This document shows, one piece after another, positions 390 through 8,881 of a stretch of DNA of 35,899 nucleotides. The position numbers and the translations under genes were made by a program. The stretch spans positions 1 through 35,899 of the forward strand of contig JASGMM010000015.1 in NCBI GenBank assembly GCA_030156435.1. Direction: 5' to 3'. The notes beneath the pieces are model-generated. The model was not told the DNA's origin. It ran no database searches and was given only the letters and a program-made list of their open reading frames with translations. The DNA comes from Clostridiales bacterium. GTDB taxonomy: Bacteria > Bacillota > Clostridia > Mahellales > Mahellaceae. How positions within the stretch are numbered: position 1 is the first letter of the stretch; each line of letters starts with the position of its first letter.

Positions 390-1619
390 ATGAAAATAGC
401 CCTGTTTACAGACAGCTTTCTGCCCCAAATAAACGGTGTGAGCGCCGTTTTGGGCCAAATGATAAATTATTTCAACCAAAATAATATAGACTATATGGTC
501 TTTGCTCCGGAATACAAGGGCTATTGCGAGGATGAGGGCAATGTACAAAGGCTGTCCAGTTTTCGCTTCGTATTTTATCCAGAATCGCGTTTCGCCTTGC
601 CCAATTACTCAACAATAAAAAAGCAACTGGATATATATAAACCGGATGTGATACATATAATGACGCCATTTTCAATGGGCATATGCGGCCTTATATATGC
701 GATAGAACATCCCGTACCAGTAGTAGCTACATATAACACCAACTACGCTGAACAGATAAAATCCTATAAGATACCTATAGCCGATTCAGTGATGTGGCAA
801 TATCTGAAATGGTTCTACAGCAGATGCAAAACGGTATGCTGTCCCTCATCGGCTTCCAAGGCTCAGTTAGACAAACATGGCATAAATAATGCGCTGGTAT
901 TCCCAAATGGCGTTGATATACAGCAGTTCAGTCCCGTCTACCGCGATGATAATTGGCGGCGCGAAATGGGAATTGATAGCAAAATAGCGCTTTTATACGT
1001 AGGTAGGATGTCCAAGGATAAAAACCTGTCGGTATTGATGGATACGATGAATATATTGAATTCACGCGGCTATGAGCAAAATATAAGGCTGATAATGGTG
1101 GGGGACGGCCCTATAAAGGATAAACTGGCACGTCACGCACCTGAAAACGTATGTTTTACAGGATATATGGCAACACCCCAGCTTTCCATAGCATACGCCT
1201 CCAGCGATATATTCATATTCCCATCGTATATAGAAACCTTCGGCAATGTAGCGCTCGAGGCCATGTCGGCAGGATTGCCTGTTATAGGCGCTAAAGGCAG
1301 CGGTTGCATGGACATCATACAAAATGGTTTTACAGGCATGCTGTGCAACCATTGGAGCCCCGTGGCCTTCGCTGATGCTGTAGAAACAATGATAAAGAAC
1401 GAGCAATTAATACAAAACATGGCTCAAAATGCTCGTGCTGCAGCTATCCAATATGATTGGGACAATATAATGTCGCGGTATATGTACCTATATTCTATAG
1501 CCGACAGCTTGCAGAAAGAGCTATTGTGGAAAAAGCAAACACAAAAGCTCTATCGCCTTGCCCGGCGCAGTTACATAAAAGGCAGGCGCTTTATGGAAAG
1601 ATTTCACTTTATGATATAG
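390..1619 (+). CDS. GT4-family glycosyltransferase
   Basis: This is a 409-residue GT-B fold glycosyltransferase of family 4, which transfers a sugar from a nucleotide donor, probably to a lipid or cell-envelope acceptor at the cytoplasmic face. The N terminus (FTDSFLPQINGVSAV) is the acceptor-side signature of MgtA/PimB-like enzymes. The donor-binding loop GRMSKDKNL follows near residue 205. The EX7E motif (ETFGNVALE) lies around residues 281-289 and is intact. Length is normal for the family. The ATG is preceded by GGAGGTG at good spacing. The gene is followed after 9 bp by the ATPase gene, so the two are probably co-transcribed. The exact donor and acceptor cannot be told from sequence. Confidence 0.9.
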   Translation: MKIALFTDSFLPQINGVSAVLGQMINYFNQNNIDYMVFAPEYKGYCEDEGNVQRLSSFRFVFYPESRFALPNYSTIKKQLDIYKPDVIHIMTPFSMGICGLIYAIEHPVPVVATYNTNYAEQIKSYKIPIADSVMWQYLKWFYSRCKTVCCPSSASKAQLDKHGINNALVFPNGVDIQQFSPVYRDDNWRREMGIDSKIALLYVGRMSKDKNLSVLMDTMNILNSRGYEQNIRLIMVGDGPIKDKLARHAPENVCFTGYMATPQLSIAYASSDIFIFPSYIETFGNVALEAMSAGLPVIGAKGSGCMDIIQNGFTGMLCNHWSPVAFADAVETMIKNEQLIQNMAQNARAAAIQYDWDNIMSRYMYLYSIADSLQKELLWKKQTQKLYRLARRSYIKGRRFMERFHFMI

Positions 1620-1628
1620 GCTGACGTT

Positions 1629-3527
1629 ATGATTATAAGAAAGCTTTACATTTCAAACTTCGGCAAATTCAAAGACAATATTATAGAATTAAAGCCCGGG
1701 CTTAATGTCATATACGGTGCCAACGAGGCTGGCAAGTCGACTATACGCAGTTTTATAGAAGGCATGCTGTATGGATTTAAAAAAGCCGATGCCCGCAGAC
1801 GCTCATTTACCGACAGTAGACAGCGCTATAGGCCATGGCTTGGTTCTTCATACACAGGCGCTATAGAATATGAAACCGACAGTAGGGTTTACCGTATAGA
1901 ACGGGACTTTGCCAATGATAGAGTAAACATATACGATGCTACCACTGGAGAGGATATCGGCGCTACCTGCGCTATACTCCCCGGCACGCGTGAACCCGAT
2001 GCGATAATACGGCATTGGGGGTTAAATGCCACAGCCTTTACCAATACCGTAAGCATAGATCAACGCAACGCCTTTTCATCCAAAACAATGGCCAAAGAGG
2101 TATCCGACGCATGGATCAATATGATGCAATCCGGCCAACAGGACGTGTCTGTCAACAAAGCATTATCATGCTTAAATAACATATTGGATGAGATCGGGTC
2201 GGATAACGCGCCGACACGCCCATGGGCCAAAGCCGCACAAAAGCTGCGGCAGCTTGAAGCTGAGAGAACCATGACACAAAAGTGCATGGATGATATGCGG
2301 GAAAGCATAGCCAAAGCGCATGACCTCAGAAAAGAAATAGCAGCCATGCGCGATGGCCGGATGAGCGATGATGCCGCCATACTATCCAACAGGCAGAATA
2401 GAACAAAACTAGAATATGAACTTAACCGAATGAATACACTCGCCGAATATATAAAGCAAAACAACGGCGACCCATTAGAGCAACTGATGTCGCTGGACAG
2501 GCAATTGGAGAGCATAAGGATCGAATTGGCTCAATACGACCGCAGTCAATCCGCCGTTTCGGACAACGGCCTGCACAATATAAAAAAGCGCCGAACGCTT
2601 TATATAATACTCATGGCGGCGATAGCAGCGGCCTCGATAGCCCTGCCGCCTTTGATAATAGCCGTAATACCTCTAATATGGCTGTTTTTGCGCGACAATA
2701 ACAAGCTACGTCGGTTAAAAAGCACCCTCGAGCAGCACAGCATGGCAATCGAGCAACAGCGCCAACAGTTGCTGGATCGTTGCGGAATACTGGAAGAACA
2801 AAAGCATGAAATCCTTTCGAAAATAGGAGCATCGGATACATCCCATGTTATATCGATGATGCGTCAACTCGATAACCTGACACACGATATAGAGCGCCTT
2901 GATGCCGAATATGAACGGTTGGTGCAACAGGCTATACACGATAAAGAAGTGGAGTTAACGGCATTGGAGGCTTCTATAGACGCTTCATTAACCGGTATAA
3001 GACCCTTAGCAGCCATAGATGAGGATATACAAAGTGTCAAGAATGACATCGATGCAATGTCATTAAAAAAGCAGGCTGCTCAAAAGGCCATAGACGTTAT
3101 AACAGAATTATCGGCCGATATACAGCGCGATTTTGCGCCGTATCTGGACCGATCCGCTGCCTCTTTAGCCAGCTATATAACCGATGGCCGCTATTCATCA
3201 CTAAGAGTATCTTCCGAGCTAGATATAAAGGTAATTGATCCCGATACAGACAAACTGGTATCGCTGGAACAATTGAGCACCGGCACTATAGATCAGCTTT
3301 ATATAGCAGTAAGGTTGGCCATAGCCGATATGTTGTCGAATAACAAGCCGCTACCTATCATAATAGACGATGCATTCTCGGAATACGATGACATAAGGTT
3401 AAAAAGGATTCTAGCTCATATAAGCCAACTGGCACAAAAAAGGCAGGTCTTATTTTTAACCTGCCATCAAAGGGATATACAAACACTACATGAACTCAAA
3501 GCGCCTTTCAATTACATAGATCTCTAA
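1629..3527 (+). CDS. SMC/Rad50-like AAA ATPase with central membrane hairpin (YhaN-like)
   Basis: The 632-residue protein begins with the RecF/SMC-type ATPase start (LYISNFGKFKDN) and a Walker A (GANEAGKST) near residue 34. It then has a long heptad-rich coiled coil, a hydrophobic pair of segments around residues 323-352 that looks like a membrane hairpin, a second coiled coil, and an ABC-type half with signature LSTGT and Walker B IIIDDAFSEYD. This layout matches the YhaN family of membrane-associated SbcC/Rad50 relatives, but it is clearly shorter than Bacillus YhaN. The Walker B glutamate position is Asp (DD instead of DE). The usual nuclease partner (a YhaM/SbcD-like phosphoesterase) is not adjacent; the neighbour is a glycosyltransferase. 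Its 3' end overlaps the convergent flhP by 4 bp. The role is unknown. Confidence 0.75.
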   Translation: MIIRKLYISNFGKFKDNIIELKPGLNVIYGANEAGKSTIRSFIEGMLYGFKKADARRRSFTDSRQRYRPWLGSSYTGAIEYETDSRVYRIERDFANDRVNIYDATTGEDIGATCAILPGTREPDAIIRHWGLNATAFTNTVSIDQRNAFSSKTMAKEVSDAWINMMQSGQQDVSVNKALSCLNNILDEIGSDNAPTRPWAKAAQKLRQLEAERTMTQKCMDDMRESIAKAHDLRKEIAAMRDGRMSDDAAILSNRQNRTKLEYELNRMNTLAEYIKQNNGDPLEQLMSLDRQLESIRIELAQYDRSQSAVSDNGLHNIKKRRTLYIILMAAIAAASIALPPLIIAVIPLIWLFLRDNNKLRRLKSTLEQHSMAIEQQRQQLLDRCGILEEQKHEILSKIGASDTSHVISMMRQLDNLTHDIERLDAEYERLVQQAIHDKEVELTALEASIDASLTGIRPLAAIDEDIQSVKNDIDAMSLKKQAAQKAIDVITELSADIQRDFAPYLDRSAASLASYITDGRYSSLRVSSELDIKVIDPDTDKLVSLEQLSTGTIDQLYIAVRLAIADMLSNNKPLPIIIDDAFSEYDDIRLKRILAHISQLAQKRQVLFLTCHQRDIQTLHELKAPFNYIDL

Positions 3528-4318
3528 CGCCTTATGCTGTTGGCCAGTCCTATCATCTCATCAGCGGTCTGCAATACTCTGGCATTTAGCTGATATGCGC
3601 GCTGTGCGCGTATCATGCGCGCCATTTCATCGGCTATATCCACATTAGATGCTTCAAGGAATCCCTGTCTTACCTTGGAATCCCCGTCGGTCAAATAATT
3701 CGGGCCGACGTTATCTGTTACAGCATAAAGATTATCGCCGCGCGCTTCCAGCGCCTGCGGGTTTGTAAACTCCACCAATGCGATATCGGCTATGTGCGCT
3801 CCCTCGACCATCACCGCTCCGGAAGGATCTATGGATATATCGCCCTCTATCGCACCTGCCGGAATCTCTATGCGAGCACCTTCCGTATCCAGCAACCAAT
3901 AGCCATTTGCTGTGGTTATATAGCTGTGGATCTGTCCATCCTCACCCTCAGCCTCTGTAAGCTTAAAATTGCCGTCCCTCGTATAAAACACATTTCCCTG
4001 GCCATCTGTCACAGCAAAAAACGCTGTACCGTCTATGCCCAGATCCAGATTGCGCTCGGTCTGCTGCATAGGTCCCTGCGCAAAATATTTGGGCGAAGAT
4101 ACCACCCTAGCACCTGTACCCATATGCGGCAACACGCCCTCATTATCGGCTTGACGGATGGCTGGATTCAGCTTATATACATAGGGCATATCCTCGATAT
4201 GCGCCGTATTTCGCTTGAATGCTGTTGTATCGACATTAGCGATATTGTTGGCTATAGTATCCACATTATACTGCTGACTTATAAGGCCGGCTCCTGCCGT
4301 CCATAATGCCTGTATCAT
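3524..4318 (-). CDS. flhP: Flagellar hook-basal body protein, FlgG-type
   Basis: The 264-residue protein has both rod/hook family ends. The N-terminal motif is NNIANVDTTAFKRN, and the C-terminal domain reads GFLEASNVDIADEMARMI followed by an RAQRAYQLNARVLQTADEM-type helix. Such proteins build the distal rod/hook base outside the membrane and are exported by the flagellar type III apparatus without a cleaved signal. It overlaps the upstream flagellar gene as ATGA, so the two are translationally coupled. In Bacillus subtilis the paralogues next to mbl are called flhO and flhP, and I use those names by synteny; flgG would be the generic name. Confidence 0.88.
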   Translation of the reverse strand: MIQALWTAGAGLISQQYNVDTIANNIANVDTTAFKRNTAHIEDMPYVYKLNPAIRQADNEGVLPHMGTGARVVSSPKYFAQGPMQQTERNLDLGIDGTAFFAVTDGQGNVFYTRDGNFKLTEAEGEDGQIHSYITTANGYWLLDTEGARIEIPAGAIEGDISIDPSGAVMVEGAHIADIALVEFTNPQALEARGDNLYAVTDNVGPNYLTDGDSKVRQGFLEASNVDIADEMARMIRAQRAYQLNARVLQTADEMIGLANSIRR

Positions 4319-5103
4319 ACCCTTCCCACCTCGTTTACTGTTTTGTCCAGCGTCTGATCCAGCATAGACACGATACGCTGAGCTGATTCATAATGGCGAT
4401 ATACCTCCATCATATCGGTTATCTCTTTGTTTATATCGACATTGGACACTTCTATATGCCCCTGTTTTATACCGGTGCCTACAGGGTAAGATTGATATTG
4501 TTCAGGGTCATAGACGATATAGAGATTATCGCCGGCCTTTTCCAAAGCATCATCTCTATTATCAAAATCCTCTACGGCTATTGTACCCGCATACTGCTGC
4601 TGGTCGGTATATATATTACCCGCCGGATCCACGCTGAAACGCTCATTACCTACAAGTATATCCACAAATTCGTTCTGATCATCATACCCCTGAACCCGAT
4701 ATCCATTTTGATTAACCAAATAACCGCCTGCATCTACAGCAAAAGCACCATCCCGGGTATACCGATAATCATTCTGGCCTACCCTGAGTACAAAAAAGCC
4801 GTCCCCTGTTAATGCCAAATCAGTATTATTATCGGTCTGCTGCAAAGGCCCTTGTAACCAGTCGGTCTTTACCTGATCCACATGTACACCATGATTTATA
4901 GAGCCAATGATATCAAAAGGCCTTACTACGGCGCCGGCTTTATTCCCTATTCTGGCCACAAGCACATCAGGGAAGCTTTGTGACACCATTTTATCCTTTT
5001 TATATCCCGTCGTCTCTGCATTAGCTATGTTATTGGCTATGGCATTCAGACGCGCAGTTTCTACCTGCATAGCGGTAGTTGCATTATATAAACCGCGAAG
5101 CAT
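4315..5103 (-). CDS. flhO: Flagellar hook-basal body protein, FlgF/FlgG-type
   Basis: This is a FlgF/FlgG-family rod protein of about 262 residues. It has NNIANAETTGYKKD at the N terminus and GHIEVSNVDINKEITDMMEV near the C terminus, the paired coiled-coil ends that polymerise in the rod. I start it at the ATG at 5103 because GGAGGG lies 7 bases upstream. A TTG five codons earlier is in frame but overlaps that ribosome site. It is first in a two-gene operon with flhP and is preceded by a sigma-D-type promoter (5137-5164), fitting late flagellar expression. Compared with B. subtilis, where mbl-flhO-flhP are co-directional, the pair here is inverted and separated from mbl by spoIIQ and spoIIID. 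Confidence 0.88.
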   Translation of the reverse strand: MLRGLYNATTAMQVETARLNAIANNIANAETTGYKKDKMVSQSFPDVLVARIGNKAGAVVRPFDIIGSINHGVHVDQVKTDWLQGPLQQTDNNTDLALTGDGFFVLRVGQNDYRYTRDGAFAVDAGGYLVNQNGYRVQGYDDQNEFVDILVGNERFSVDPAGNIYTDQQQYAGTIAVEDFDNRDDALEKAGDNLYIVYDPEQYQSYPVGTGIKQGHIEVSNVDINKEITDMMEVYRHYESAQRIVSMLDQTLDKTVNEVGRV

Positions 5104-5136
5104 CTCGTTTCCCTCCAAATCTTACACTTGATTCTT

Positions 5137-5164
5137 TATTCGGCATCCTGCGCACAAAACTTTA
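5137..5164 (-). promoter_or_regulatory. Sigma-D (flagellar) promoter for flhO-flhP
   Basis: On the minus strand TAAA (5161-5164) is followed after 16 bases by GCCGAATA (5137-5144). This is close to the B. subtilis sigma-D consensus TAAA-N14-16-GCCGATAT. It lies about 34 bases upstream of the flhO ATG. Confidence 0.75.
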
Positions 5165-5180
5165 TACGAACAATATTCGT

Positions 5181-5211
5181 GTATAAACATTGCATAAAAT
5201 GGGAGAATATA
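5181..5211 (+). promoter_or_regulatory. Sigma-F (forespore) promoter for spoIIQ
   Basis: GTATA (5181-5185), a 16-base spacer and GGAGAATATA (5202-5211) match the published sigma-F pattern GywTA-N16-GgnrAnAnTw at all but one defined position. B. subtilis spoIIQ is sigma-F dependent, so motif and gene identity agree. Just upstream an imperfect palindrome with arms ACGAA and TTCGT (5166-5180) lies between this promoter and the divergent sigma-D promoter. Confidence 0.75.
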
Positions 5212-5260
5212 TAGTGAATGTAGCTTTATATTACGATATTAGGAGGTATCCGGATATAAA

Positions 5261-6046
5261 ATGAAACGAATAGGCACATGGTTTAAAAATACATTCGCAA
5301 AAGATAAAATAGTCCATTTTCTGGATAAACAGGGCTTTTACATCGTTTTATTCGCCTGTATAGCCATTATAGCCGCTACAGCTATAATAACATCCGATAA
5401 CAACTTTTTGCCCAATCCCGAACAACTATCGCTGAGCGAGCCTGCAAAAGAAACACAGCCTTCAGCTCCGACCGATTCGGTAGTAGACGACGCAAAAGTC
5501 GAACTCAAAGTAGAGGATGTCAATGATAAGGAAACAGGCCAACAAACAAAAGAGGAATCGCCGGCAACACCGGCCAAAACAGCAAATATAGTAAAAACCG
5601 CCAAAGCAGCGTCTGCTGCAACATCCAATGCAACCGCCAGTACAAAGCTGATACCGCCAGTACCTGGTCAGATAAGCGTAGAATATGCCAAAGATCACCT
5701 GGTGTACTCAAATACCCTCGAGCAATGGGGTACACACGATGGCATAGATATAGCCGCTGCCACCGGTACTGAGGTTAAGGCTGCTGCCGCTGGCAAAGTG
5801 GAAAGTATAACCAAGGACGATAAGCTCGGCATCGTAATAACAATAGATCATGGCAACGGCATAAAGACCAGATATGGTAATCTCTCTACGGGCGATATGG
5901 TTAAAGTCGGGCAAAGGGTAGAAACAGGCCAGACTATCAGCGGCGTGGGCAATACCGCGGCGTTTGAAATAGCCGATGCTCCTCACCTCCATTTCGAGGT
6001 TATCGTAAACGATAAACCGGTAGATCCTAAGAAATATATAAAATAG
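5261..6046 (+). CDS. spoIIQ: SpoIIQ-like M23 (LytM) family forespore membrane protein
   Basis: The 261-residue protein has a short cytoplasmic N terminus, one membrane segment (about residues 26-45), a low-complexity Ala/Lys/Thr linker (55-130) and a C-terminal LytM/M23 domain (about 140-261). The zinc-binding set is intact: H159 and D163 in HDGID, and H244 in HLHF with H242 beside it. The catalytic His usually found in the Y-x-H-L motif is Asn here (YGNL, N207). SpoIIQ forms a channel-like complex with SpoIIIAH across the engulfment space. The assignment rests on domain layout, the adjacent spoIIID-mbl genes and the sigma-F promoter. AGGAGGT precedes the ATG. A strong terminator overlaps its stop codon, so it is probably monocistronic. 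Confidence 0.85.
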   Translation: MKRIGTWFKNTFAKDKIVHFLDKQGFYIVLFACIAIIAATAIITSDNNFLPNPEQLSLSEPAKETQPSAPTDSVVDDAKVELKVEDVNDKETGQQTKEESPATPAKTANIVKTAKAASAATSNATASTKLIPPVPGQISVEYAKDHLVYSNTLEQWGTHDGIDIAAATGTEVKAAAAGKVESITKDDKLGIVITIDHGNGIKTRYGNLSTGDMVKVGQRVETGQTISGVGNTAAFEIADAPHLHFEVIVNDKPVDPKKYIK

Positions 6047-6076
6047 AGGAAATGCTCTCGGTATTTCCTCTATTTT
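6041..6076 (+). terminator. Intrinsic terminator after spoIIQ
   Basis: A 13-bp perfect stem pairs AAATAGAGGAAAT (6041-6053) with ATTTCCTCTATTT (6063-6075) around a 9-base loop, followed by further T residues. The left arm includes the spoIIQ stop codon. Confidence 0.85.
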
Positions 6077-6150
6077 ATTCTATCCTTTCTTTTTACAGCA
6101 TATTAATTATAAAGAATATAATGGTTTTGTCTTAGAGGGGGTTAAAAGCT

Positions 6151-6405
6151 TTGAAGGAGTATATCGAAGAAAGGGTAGTCGCAACGGCTCAGTATATAAT
6201 AAAATACAGGGCCACTGTCAGAGAAGCCGCAAAGGTATTTAAGGTAAGCAAAAGCACAGTACATAAGGATATGTCGGAAAGACTACCGAAGATAAACCCC
6301 ATATTATACAATCAGGTAAAAAAAATCGTAGATAAAAACAAAGCAGAAAGGCACATACGCGGAGGACGCGCAACAAAACTCAAGTACATAGCCAAAAAAA
6401 TATGA
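6151..6405 (+). CDS. spoIIID: Sporulation transcription factor SpoIIID
   Basis: The 84-residue DNA-binding protein closely resembles Bacillus SpoIIID. It has a helix-turn-helix with the motif VSKSTVHKDMSERLP, then the HIRGGRATKLKY basic tail that makes additional DNA contacts. SpoIIID switches genes on and off in the mother cell after sigma-E activation. The start is a TTG at 6151 with AGAGGGGG about 10 bases upstream; no better ATG exists. The upstream region has an AT-rich run (GCATATT and later TATAAT near 6098-6120) that might hold a sigma-E promoter, but I cannot fit the consensus firmly. mbl follows after 80 bp, the same order as in B. subtilis. Confidence 0.97.
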   Translation: MKEYIEERVVATAQYIIKYRATVREAAKVFKVSKSTVHKDMSERLPKINPILYNQVKKIVDKNKAERHIRGGRATKLKYIAKKI

Positions 6406-6485: not shown

Positions 6486-7520
6486 ATGTTCGGAATTCAT
6501 GATATGGCCATTGATTTAGGAACTTCATCGGTACTAGTATACGTCAAAGGTAAAGGCATAGTTCTTAAGGAGCCATCAGTAGTAGCCATAAATAAGAATA
6601 CCAACCAGGTGCTAGCCGTAGGCAGTGAAGCCAAGCTTATGCTGGGCCGTACACCGGGCAATATAGTAGCTACACGGCCGCTGAGAGAAGGCGTTATATC
6701 GGACTATGACACCACGCAAAAAATGTTAAAATATTTTATACGCAAGGTATCCAAATATGTACGGTTGAGCAAGCCTCGAATAATAATATGTATACCCACC
6801 GGCATAACGCAGGTGGAACAAAAAGCCGTATTGGACGCTTCGTATGATGCCGGGGCCAATAAGACCTACCTTATGGAAGAACCCATAGCCGCAGCTATAG
6901 GAGCAGGCATCGACATATCGTTACCAAATGGCAGCATGGTAGTGGATATAGGCGGTGGTACCACCGATATAGCGGTTATATCGCTCGGCGGGGCAGTGGT
7001 AAGCGATTCCATAAAGGTGGCCGGTGACAAATTCGACGACGCTATTATACGTTACATGAGGCGCAAATACAATATATTGATCGGCGAGAAAACAGCCGAA
7101 GATCTGAAAATAACCGTAGGTGCTATATATCCTCCCAAAGAACAAAAATCGATGGAGGTATGCGGCCGCAACCTTATATCGGGCTTGCCCAAAGTGGTAA
7201 ACGTTACAACAGATGAAATGGTAGAAGCACTTAAAGAACCGGCTGACATCATAGTAGAGGCTATACATTCGGTGTTTGAACGGACACCACCTGAGCTGTC
7301 AGCCGATATAAGCGAAAGAGGTATCATAATGACAGGAGGCGGCGCCTTACTAACCGGCATGGATAAGCTAATACAGGAGCAGACAGGCATACCGGTCTAT
7401 GTAGCATCTGATCCAGTATCATGCGTCGTCCTCGGAGCCGGAAAGGCTTTGGAAAATATAAGCGTATATTCCGAAAGCGCATTAATGGATAACAGCAATT
7501 CCCCTGTGTACATAGGATAG
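6486..7520 (+). CDS. mbl: Rod-shape actin homologue Mbl (MreB family)
   Basis: The 344-residue bacterial actin organises cell-wall synthesis along the cylinder at the inner membrane face. It has phosphate-1 motif DLGTSSVLVYVKG, phosphate-2 motif DIGGGTTDIAV and adenosine motif TGGGALLTGMD, all intact. The amphipathic N terminus is MFGIHDM. Sequence details (KGIVLKEPSVVA, GRTPGNIVATRPL) and position directly after spoIIID favour Mbl over MreB or MreBH. AGAAGGAGAG precedes the ATG. A TATAAT at 6437-6442 could be its own -10, although no good -35 is seen. A strong terminator follows the stop. Confidence 0.95.
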   Translation: MFGIHDMAIDLGTSSVLVYVKGKGIVLKEPSVVAINKNTNQVLAVGSEAKLMLGRTPGNIVATRPLREGVISDYDTTQKMLKYFIRKVSKYVRLSKPRIIICIPTGITQVEQKAVLDASYDAGANKTYLMEEPIAAAIGAGIDISLPNGSMVVDIGGGTTDIAVISLGGAVVSDSIKVAGDKFDDAIIRYMRRKYNILIGEKTAEDLKITVGAIYPPKEQKSMEVCGRNLISGLPKVVNVTTDEMVEALKEPADIIVEAIHSVFERTPPELSADISERGIIMTGGGALLTGMDKLIQEQTGIPVYVASDPVSCVVLGAGKALENISVYSESALMDNSNSPVYIG

Positions 7521-7624: not shown

Positions 7625-8881
7625 TCATATAGATATACGCTTTATGTCTGCTCCCAAGCTTATTAATTTCTTATCTATATTTTCATAACCTCTGTCTATA
7701 TATTTTACATTGTTTATTTCGGTAACGCCCTCAGCCATAAGCCCCGCAACGACCAGAGCCGCACCAGCTCTAAGGTCGGTGGCAGTAACAGGCGCACCTG
7801 TCAATTTATCGACGCCATCTATTATAGCCACTCTATCCTCTATTTTGATTTTAGCGCCCATGCGTTTGATCTCCTCTATATGTTTGTAGCGGCTCTCCCA
7901 TATATTTTCCGTTATAATACTTGTGCCATCGGCTACAGATAATAGCGCTGACATGGGCTGTTGCAAATCGGTCGGAAATCCAGGATAGGGCAACGTCTTA
8001 ACAGTAGTGTGCTTTGGCCTGCCATTGCTTTTGACATGCACGGAGTCATCGCCCTCCGATACTTCTATACCCATCTCGCTCAGCTTTGCCGACACCGATT
8101 CCAAATGAACCGGTATCACATTCTTTATAATGACATCGCCATACGTCGCAGCAGCGGCTATCATAAAAGTTCCGGCTTCTATTTGGTCAGGCACGATATT
8201 ATGGCGACAGCCTCTAAGCGCCTTAACGCCTTTAATCTTTACCACATCGGTACCTGCGCCTTTTATATTTGCTCCCATAGCATTCAAAAAATTAGCCGTA
8301 TCCACTACATGAGGCTCCTTAGCCGCATTGACTATCTCGGTTATCCCCTCGGCCATAGACGCAGCCAGCATTATATTTATGGTAGCACCCACGCTTACCA
8401 CGTCAAGATATATCTCCGCACCTTTAAGTCCGTCTGTATACGCCTTTATAAAACCGTGTTCTATGGAAACCTTAGCACCCAGTGCTTCCAAGCCCTTTAT
8501 ATGCTGGTCTATAGGGCGCACTCCTATATCGCAGCCGCCTGGAAACGCCACCTCTGCTCGTCCAAACTTAGCTAACAAAACACCGAGCAGATAATACGAC
8601 GCCCGCATACGACGAGCTAATTCCATCGGGGTAACGAATGTGTCAATGCCCGCTGGATCTATATACATACTGCCGTCGCCAGTAAGCTCGGCTTTCGCTC
8701 CCATAGCCGTCAATATATCCTTTAATACTAAAACATCATCTATATAAGGCAAGTTTTCAATCGTCGATGGGCTATCAGCCAAAATAGCAGCCGGTATTAC
8801 AGCCACCGCTGAATTTTTACATCCGCTGACACAAACCTCGCCTTTTAACGGCTTACCACCGTATATAAGCAACTTGTCCAT
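7625..8881 (-). CDS. murA: UDP-N-acetylglucosamine 1-carboxyvinyltransferase MurA
   Basis: This cytoplasmic enzyme adds enolpyruvate from phosphoenolpyruvate to UDP-GlcNAc, the first committed step of peptidoglycan synthesis. The 418-residue length is standard. K22 in SGCKNSAV is the conserved substrate lysine, and C117 in FPGGCDIG is the catalytic, fosfomycin-reactive cysteine. RPIDQHIKG follows as expected. The motif reads GCKN rather than the common GAKN, a mild change. The ATG is preceded by GGAGG. In B. subtilis murAA lies close to spoIID and spoIIQ, so its presence here next to the spoIIQ-spoIIID-mbl block is conserved synteny in altered orientation. Confidence 0.97.

Follow-up and report, generated by a model that had tools for sequence, protein, structure and literature searches.

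A head-to-head flhO-spoIIQ region in Mahella that probably joins two independent, conventional promoters

Bidirectional promoter regions of bacteria hold two promoters facing apart, back to back, within a short intergenic region. Compared to those known, the region between flhO and spoIIQ in Mahella would pair promoters of two different alternative sigma factors belonging to alternative cell fates. Described counterparts exist for each half. The flhO-flhP operon of B. subtilis, located downstream of mbl, consists of distal rod genes orthologous to those of Mahella; flhO is named among the SigD-controlled genes and the operon has a promoter of its own (PMC5540618), and its products are the rod subunits FlgF (FlhO) and FlgG (FlhP) (PMC12153297). 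The order mbl-flhO-flhP is reported for Bacillus, Geobacillus and Oceanobacillus (PMC3720852). Compared to B. subtilis, flhO-flhP of Mahella points away from spoIIQ-spoIIID-mbl and lies on its other side. In C. difficile, spoIIQ (CD0125) is under sigma-F control, and the account of its promoter in the same source, unlike what is seen in Mahella, describes no divergent flagellar promoter (PMC3789822). In Clostridia at large, the spoIID-spoIIQ-spoIIID-mbl-flhO-flhP cluster has the same genes and the same kinds of promoter box as Mahella.

The window, i.e. the whole stretch of 35,899 nucleotides that was analysed, belongs to a draft genome of 2.19 Mb in 104 contigs. Among 79 genomes searched, the only relatives of the same genus were G001 and G002, the latter being M. 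australiensis, and together with the window's genome these form the set of three close genomes referred to as Mahella. M. australiensis is motile by peritrichous flagella and forms spores (PMC3156404).

Two FlgF/FlgG-type rod proteins and an M23 SpoIIQ-like protein are encoded on either side of the intergenic region, as the initial annotation had it. On the minus strand, flhO (4315-5103, ATG at 5101-5103) encodes a FlgF-like distal rod protein (TIGR03506, 178.2 bits; TIGR02490 flgF, 166.4 bits, below the cut-off of 178.5) and flhP (3524-4318) a FlgG-like one (TIGR03506, 200.8 bits, cut-off 70.25; TIGR02488, 205.4 bits, below the cut-off of 252.75; Pfam Flg_bbr_C, D1, Flg_bb_rod). On the plus strand, spoIIQ (5261-6046, ATG at 5261) encodes an engulfment protein with an M23 peptidase fold (Peptidase_M23, 98.8 bits), which scored 73.4 bits with the NCBIfam SpoIIQ model, below the cut-off of 250, and 76.0 bits with another M23 model, Pgp3, also below cut-off; its homologues in relatives sit between spoIID and spoIIID. 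Ribosome-binding sites read directly from the sequence, GGAGG for flhO (5112-5116, minus strand, 8 nt before the ATG) and AGGAGG for spoIIQ (5241-5246, plus strand, 14 nt before the ATG and thus rather far), are kept in all three Mahella genomes. An intrinsic terminator-like hairpin of 19 pairs with a T-rich tail follows spoIIQ (6038-6078, plus strand). Beyond it lie spoIIID (6151-6405, plus strand; TIGR02844, 132.8 bits, cut-off 111.5), the MreB-like mbl (6486-7520, plus strand; TIGR00904, 466.1 bits, cut-off 365.75) and, convergent with mbl, a murA paralogue (7625-8881, minus strand; TIGR01072, 550.6 bits, cut-off 392.7). Mahella has two murA genes, the one adjoining mbl and another, about 52% identical, adjoining spoIID in G001 and G002 (L180, L181). 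No Rfam family matched the window at gathering scores.

A flagellar and a forespore promoter had been annotated within positions 5137-5211, and direct reading of both strands finds both motifs there. On the minus strand, TAAA-N16-GCCGAATA faces flhO-flhP, with the -35 element TAAA (TAAAGT) at 5161-5164, a 16-bp spacer at 5145-5160 and the -10 element GCCGAATA at 5137-5144. The -35 element and all 8 columns of the -10 element are invariant in the three Mahella genomes, while the spacer varies at 4 of 16 columns. Boxes of the TAAA-N16 kind also precede flhO in relatives. The motif letters (TAAA, about 15-16 bp, then a GCCGATAW-type -10), which we took to be those of sigma-D, were later supported by three Mahella flagellin loci (L173, L174, L175; one per genome), where TAAA-N16-TCCGATAT scores 12/12; the remaining four of the seven flagellin-domain loci contained no sigma-D box within 300 bp before the start (best 8-9 of 12). 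With spaced boxes upstream of a flagellar gene in a genome that encodes FliA (TIGR02479, 236.1 bits, cut-off 189.6), the site has the features expected of a putative sigma-D (FliA) promoter. It scores 10/12, under the threshold of at least 11 applied to relatives, and since 280 of 2000 shuffles of the 157-bp intergenic region reach this score, the sigma-D box, taken by itself in this single sequence, could be due to chance. A genome-wide scan for TAAA-N14..16-GCCGA gave 132 places against 106 for the control, and the pattern is thus too common to be informative.

On the plus strand, GTATA/TGGGAGAATAT faces spoIIQ. The sigma-F-type -35 element GTATA (5181-5185) is invariant in the three Mahella genomes, and the same box occurs upstream of spoIIQ in relatives and of two further genes in Mahella, as GTATA-N15-GGTGAGCAT before gpr in all three genomes and as GTATA-N15-GGTTATAAT before the one sigG examined, that of the window's genome. 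No good sigma-F box was seen upstream of Mahella spoIIR (L207, L208, L209; best 8 or 9 of 11), and one genome-wide sigma-F pattern scan did not have the window's own site among its listed matches. The -10 element TGGGAGAATAT (5200-5210, plus strand) brings the site to 10/11 against GYATW-N14..16-GGNNANAAT, with an ambiguous register (spacer 14, 15 or 16); the first G of the GG is missing in the best register, and G001 reads GGCAGAATAT, a G-to-C change. Describing both motifs as good fits to consensus was therefore slightly generous, as they score 10/12 and 10/11 and the sigma-F -10 has no single register. The G upstream of the -10, a trait of C. difficile sigma-F promoters (PMC3789822), is kept before Mahella spoIIQ, with the reservation that the register is ambiguous and that the site may also overlap in specificity with sigma-G. 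From this -10 to the ATG there are 52 nt; in the 45 non-Mahella spoIIQ loci with a box, the distance from box end to start was 16-24 nt in 35 and 40 nt or more in three. Here too, spaced boxes stand upstream of a forespore gene in a genome that encodes the matching factor, SigF (TIGR02885, 330.7 bits, cut-off 321.45), which is consistent with a sigma-F promoter. SigG (497.6 bits, NCBIfam cut-off 457), SigE and SigK, likewise above their NCBIfam cut-offs, and SigA are encoded as well.

The boxes were compared in 110 loci around spoIIID, of which 30 comprise the window and relatives and 80 came from further genome contigs. An upstream region, at most 200 bp long, was definable for spoIIQ in 60 loci and for flhO in 31. 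Because tblastn hits were used to position the starts, some are off by a few codons, the assumed flhO start not being a start codon in 7 of the 31, and in some loci there is hardly any gap between mbl and flhO. The consensus letters were adjusted on relatives before the test, and since the sigma-F motif was written after four relatives had been viewed, those four are not independent. A sigma-F box scoring at least 10/11 was found upstream of spoIIQ in 48/60 loci, versus 6.4% of shuffles. Without Mahella, it was present in 45/57 loci on the sense strand and 0/57 on the antisense strand, and upstream of flhO, as a swapped-gene control, in 1/28. Sigma-D boxes scoring at least 11/12 preceded flhO in 8/31 loci, versus 1.1% of shuffles. 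All eight were among the 28 non-Mahella loci (8/28 sense, 0/28 antisense), the other 20 scoring below 11; at a threshold of 10 the non-Mahella counts were 12/28 sense and 2/28 antisense, and the swapped-gene control with at least 11 upstream of spoIIQ gave 0/57.

As the strand and swapped-gene controls are clean, each box goes with its own gene, and the comparison supports both the predicted identities and the predicted targets, a sigma-D promoter for flhO-flhP and a sigma-F-type promoter for spoIIQ, as first proposed. Chance matches at one or both boxes, with the genes driven by other promoters such as sigma-A promoters, would be in keeping with the shuffles of the Mahella intergenic region, of which 280 of 2000 reach the sigma-D score, 82 the sigma-F score and 15 both together. 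The boxes recur in Clostridia ahead of the expected genes and on the expected strand, which argues against this, as does the lack of a sigma-70-like match at the threshold of our scan in 5104-5260, and we give this explanation very little credence.

Both spoIIQ and flhO were visible in 29 of the 110 loci. In all 26 of these from outside Mahella, spoIIQ, mbl and flhO are co-directional and the cluster is collinear, whereas flhO and spoIIQ are head to head in the three Mahella loci (window, G001, G002) and in no other of the 29. In a tree built from Mbl and SpoIIID (64 rows), L015 came out as the sister of Mahella with support of 99/94; it has the co-directional order, both boxes, and spoIID just upstream of spoIIQ. 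The head-to-head order is thus derived and, within the present sampling, arose on a single lineage. The spoIID gene of G001 and G002 is found at a different place, adjoining another murA, and no SpoIID exceeded the family cut-off in the draft genome of the window, perhaps due to an assembly gap. The separation of spoIID from spoIIQ in G001 and G002, when the two adjoin in L015, fits an inversion of the spoIIQ-spoIIID-mbl block.

Divergent box pairs were also searched for in 391 genomes sampled from the class. An exact two-box pattern gave two matches, which did not include the window because the Mahella -10 departs from the pattern. A relaxed pattern matched 10 genomes, namely the three Mahella and seven others, against four matches for the reversed-pattern control. 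In the seven others, each match overlaps an open frame of at least 120 codons, and in the loci of about 3 kb around them tblastn (E up to 1e-3) matched none of flhP, flhO, SpoIIQ, SpoIIID, Mbl and MurA of the window. Within the 391 genomes, a divergent sigma-D/sigma-F pair at these genes outside Mahella was therefore rejected, relaxed matches lying beside them only in the three Mahella genomes.

The spoIIID gene alone is flipped in 4/26 of the co-directional loci, and it is inverted relative to its neighbours in L023, L026, L094, L095, L136 and L148; with several lineages involved, the sporulation cluster seems prone to small inversions.

The 157-bp flhO-spoIIQ region of Mahella is therefore best read, with a high degree of confidence, as two independent conventional promoters that would be older than their adjacency, were joined by a rearrangement and are each switched by their own sigma factor. 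The ancestral order would have been murA-spoIID-spoIIQ-spoIIID-mbl-flhO-flhP in one direction, with spoIID and spoIIQ flanking the sigma-F box, and mbl and flhO the sigma-D box. On the branch leading to Mahella, the spoIIQ-spoIIID-mbl block may have been rearranged relative to flhO-flhP, as by a three-gene inversion, and parted from murA-spoIID, and this would have joined the upstream sides of both promoters. A FliA/sigma-D promoter would then drive flhO-flhP in motile cells, and a sigma-F promoter, possibly used by sigma-G as well, would drive spoIIQ in the forespore. The sequences themselves establish the boxes and genes with their conservation, order and polarity, whereas the positions of the starts, the sigma factors used, the inversion and the source of the palindrome are inferences. 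The region consists of ordinary parts in a lineage-specific arrangement and does not reveal a new regulatory mechanism.

It had been proposed that the shared region, with the palindrome between the promoters, could coordinate or insulate motility and sporulation. The comparison lends this no support, as the head-to-head order was seen only in Mahella (3 of the 29 loci) and is derived, the boxes occur apart and the palindrome is at chance level. Relatives carry each box with its own gene though the genes are not neighbours, which leaves a shared motility/sporulation switch unsupported.

A related possibility is that Mahella gained a cis switch through the compact arrangement, where a polymerase at one promoter, or the hairpin at the junction, would reduce firing of the other and add a layer to the choice between motility and sporulation. 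With a spacing of 7 bp from the -10 element, the predicted starts fall near 5130 (minus strand) and 5216 (plus strand), about 86 bp apart. A gap of 16 bp separates the two -35 boxes. Upstream polymerase contacts at the two promoters would overlap, by about 25 bp if textbook footprints are taken to their -55 edges; at the nominal -40 edges (about 5170 and 5176) the footprints would stay just apart. Interference between the predicted promoters is thus physically possible. Conservation of the junction would be in line with such a switch, as the stretch 5165-5214 has only two variable columns (5170 and 5203) among the three Mahella genomes. The whole intergenic region has 14, with none in the sigma-D boxes, four in the 16-bp sigma-D spacer, one in the palindrome, none in the sigma-F -35 and spacer and one in the sigma-F -10. 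Against such a switch, the two sigma factors are active in separate cells and at separate times, so that simultaneous occupancy should be rare, and the pairing is found in one genus only (3/29 loci; at these genes, relaxed matches in only three Mahella of 391 genomes). We consider the cis switch unlikely, and two promoters switched independently by their own sigma factors remain the preferred reading.

The palindrome ACGAA-CAATA-TTCGT is present, as annotated, at 5166-5180, exactly between the two -35 elements, and it is perfect in two of the three Mahella genomes. A regulator acting on both promoters could in principle use such a site as an operator. Perfect arms of at least five were, however, found in 387/1000 shuffles of the 75 bp, which places the palindrome no higher than chance, and the left arm reads ACGAG in G002 (M. 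australiensis). Nor does the pattern recur as an operator would, ACGARNNNNNYTCGT being present at only 3, 2 and 3 places in the three genomes, below the reversed-pattern control (14, 22 and 24 per strand). A shared operator is thus unsupported and highly improbable. The initial annotation had suggested aligning the region from related species, and in such an alignment of the three Mahella genomes the sigma-D boxes and the sigma-F -35 are invariant, one arm of the palindrome is changed in G002, and the sigma-F -10 is changed in G001.

In plus-strand RNA, the palindrome could fold into a hairpin of eight pairs, one of them G.U, at 5163-5183. Its presence is probably either due to chance or the trace of an earlier terminator-like stem overlapping the ancestral sigma-F -35. 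That the hairpin is such a remnant, or a stand-in for an ancestral stem shielding spoIIQ from read-through, is plausible yet conjectural. The sister locus points in this direction. The sigma-F -35 of L015 sits within the 3' arm of a hairpin with 17 pairs (-21.5 kcal/mol, z -11.2; L015:350-392), and a second stem, located after mbl (z -2.5; L015:2904-2944), has the sigma-D -35 at its 3' end, so that the -35 boxes of spoIIQ and flhO are both placed in 3' arms of stems that follow the preceding gene. A stem overlapping the sigma-F -35 was present in 12/48 loci versus 3.3 expected; three of the 12 are the near-identical Mahella loci, and several of the stems are without a G-C pair. In Mahella, too, the end of the stem falls within the sigma-F -35, and the 35 nt around this stem, a segment chosen for the stem, fold alone at -6.3 kcal/mol (z -3.1) in the window and at -6.0 kcal/mol (z -1.7) in G002, where the A-to-G change keeps a G.U pair, weak evidence as a single substitution. 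Against a remnant, the stem is within reach of chance, 8-pair stems allowing G.U being equalled in 30/500 shuffles of the 75 bp and 115/500 of the intergenic region. No terminator-like site was called at 5163-5190, where no T tract follows the hairpin, and the missing U-tract means that the Mahella stem does not qualify as an intrinsic terminator. Antisense transcription arriving from the left across flhP-flhO might nevertheless be slowed by it; taken together, we regard this explanation as doubtful, though better placed than the switch or the operator. No plus-strand terminator was called from position 1500 to 6037, which makes antisense read-through across flhP-flhO toward spoIIQ possible.

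To the left of the operon, an AAA-type ATPase gene (1629-3527, plus strand) with weak Rad50/SMC-like matches converges with flhP on the minus strand, with a 4-nt overlap at 3524-3527. A terminator-like site serving flhO-flhP lies inside this ATPase gene (3442-3465, minus strand).

The Mahella region appears to be a natural case in which promoters serving opposite cell fates were brought together and kept recognizable boxes, which suggests that the specificity of sigma factors alone keeps the two programmes apart. It offers an easy test case for whether close divergent promoters of alternative sigma factors interfere, and the conserved forespore box of spoIIQ may be used in annotating Clostridia.

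The upstream regions of three Mahella flagellin genes (L174, L175, L176) contain a repeated 5' leader, GGCATGGATGCC, that precedes the ribosome-binding site and could fold as a small hairpin with GGA in the loop. CsrA sites have GGA in a hairpin loop in the same manner. In each of the three regions, GCCGAATAAA, a sequence similar to the flhO -10, comes after the leader.
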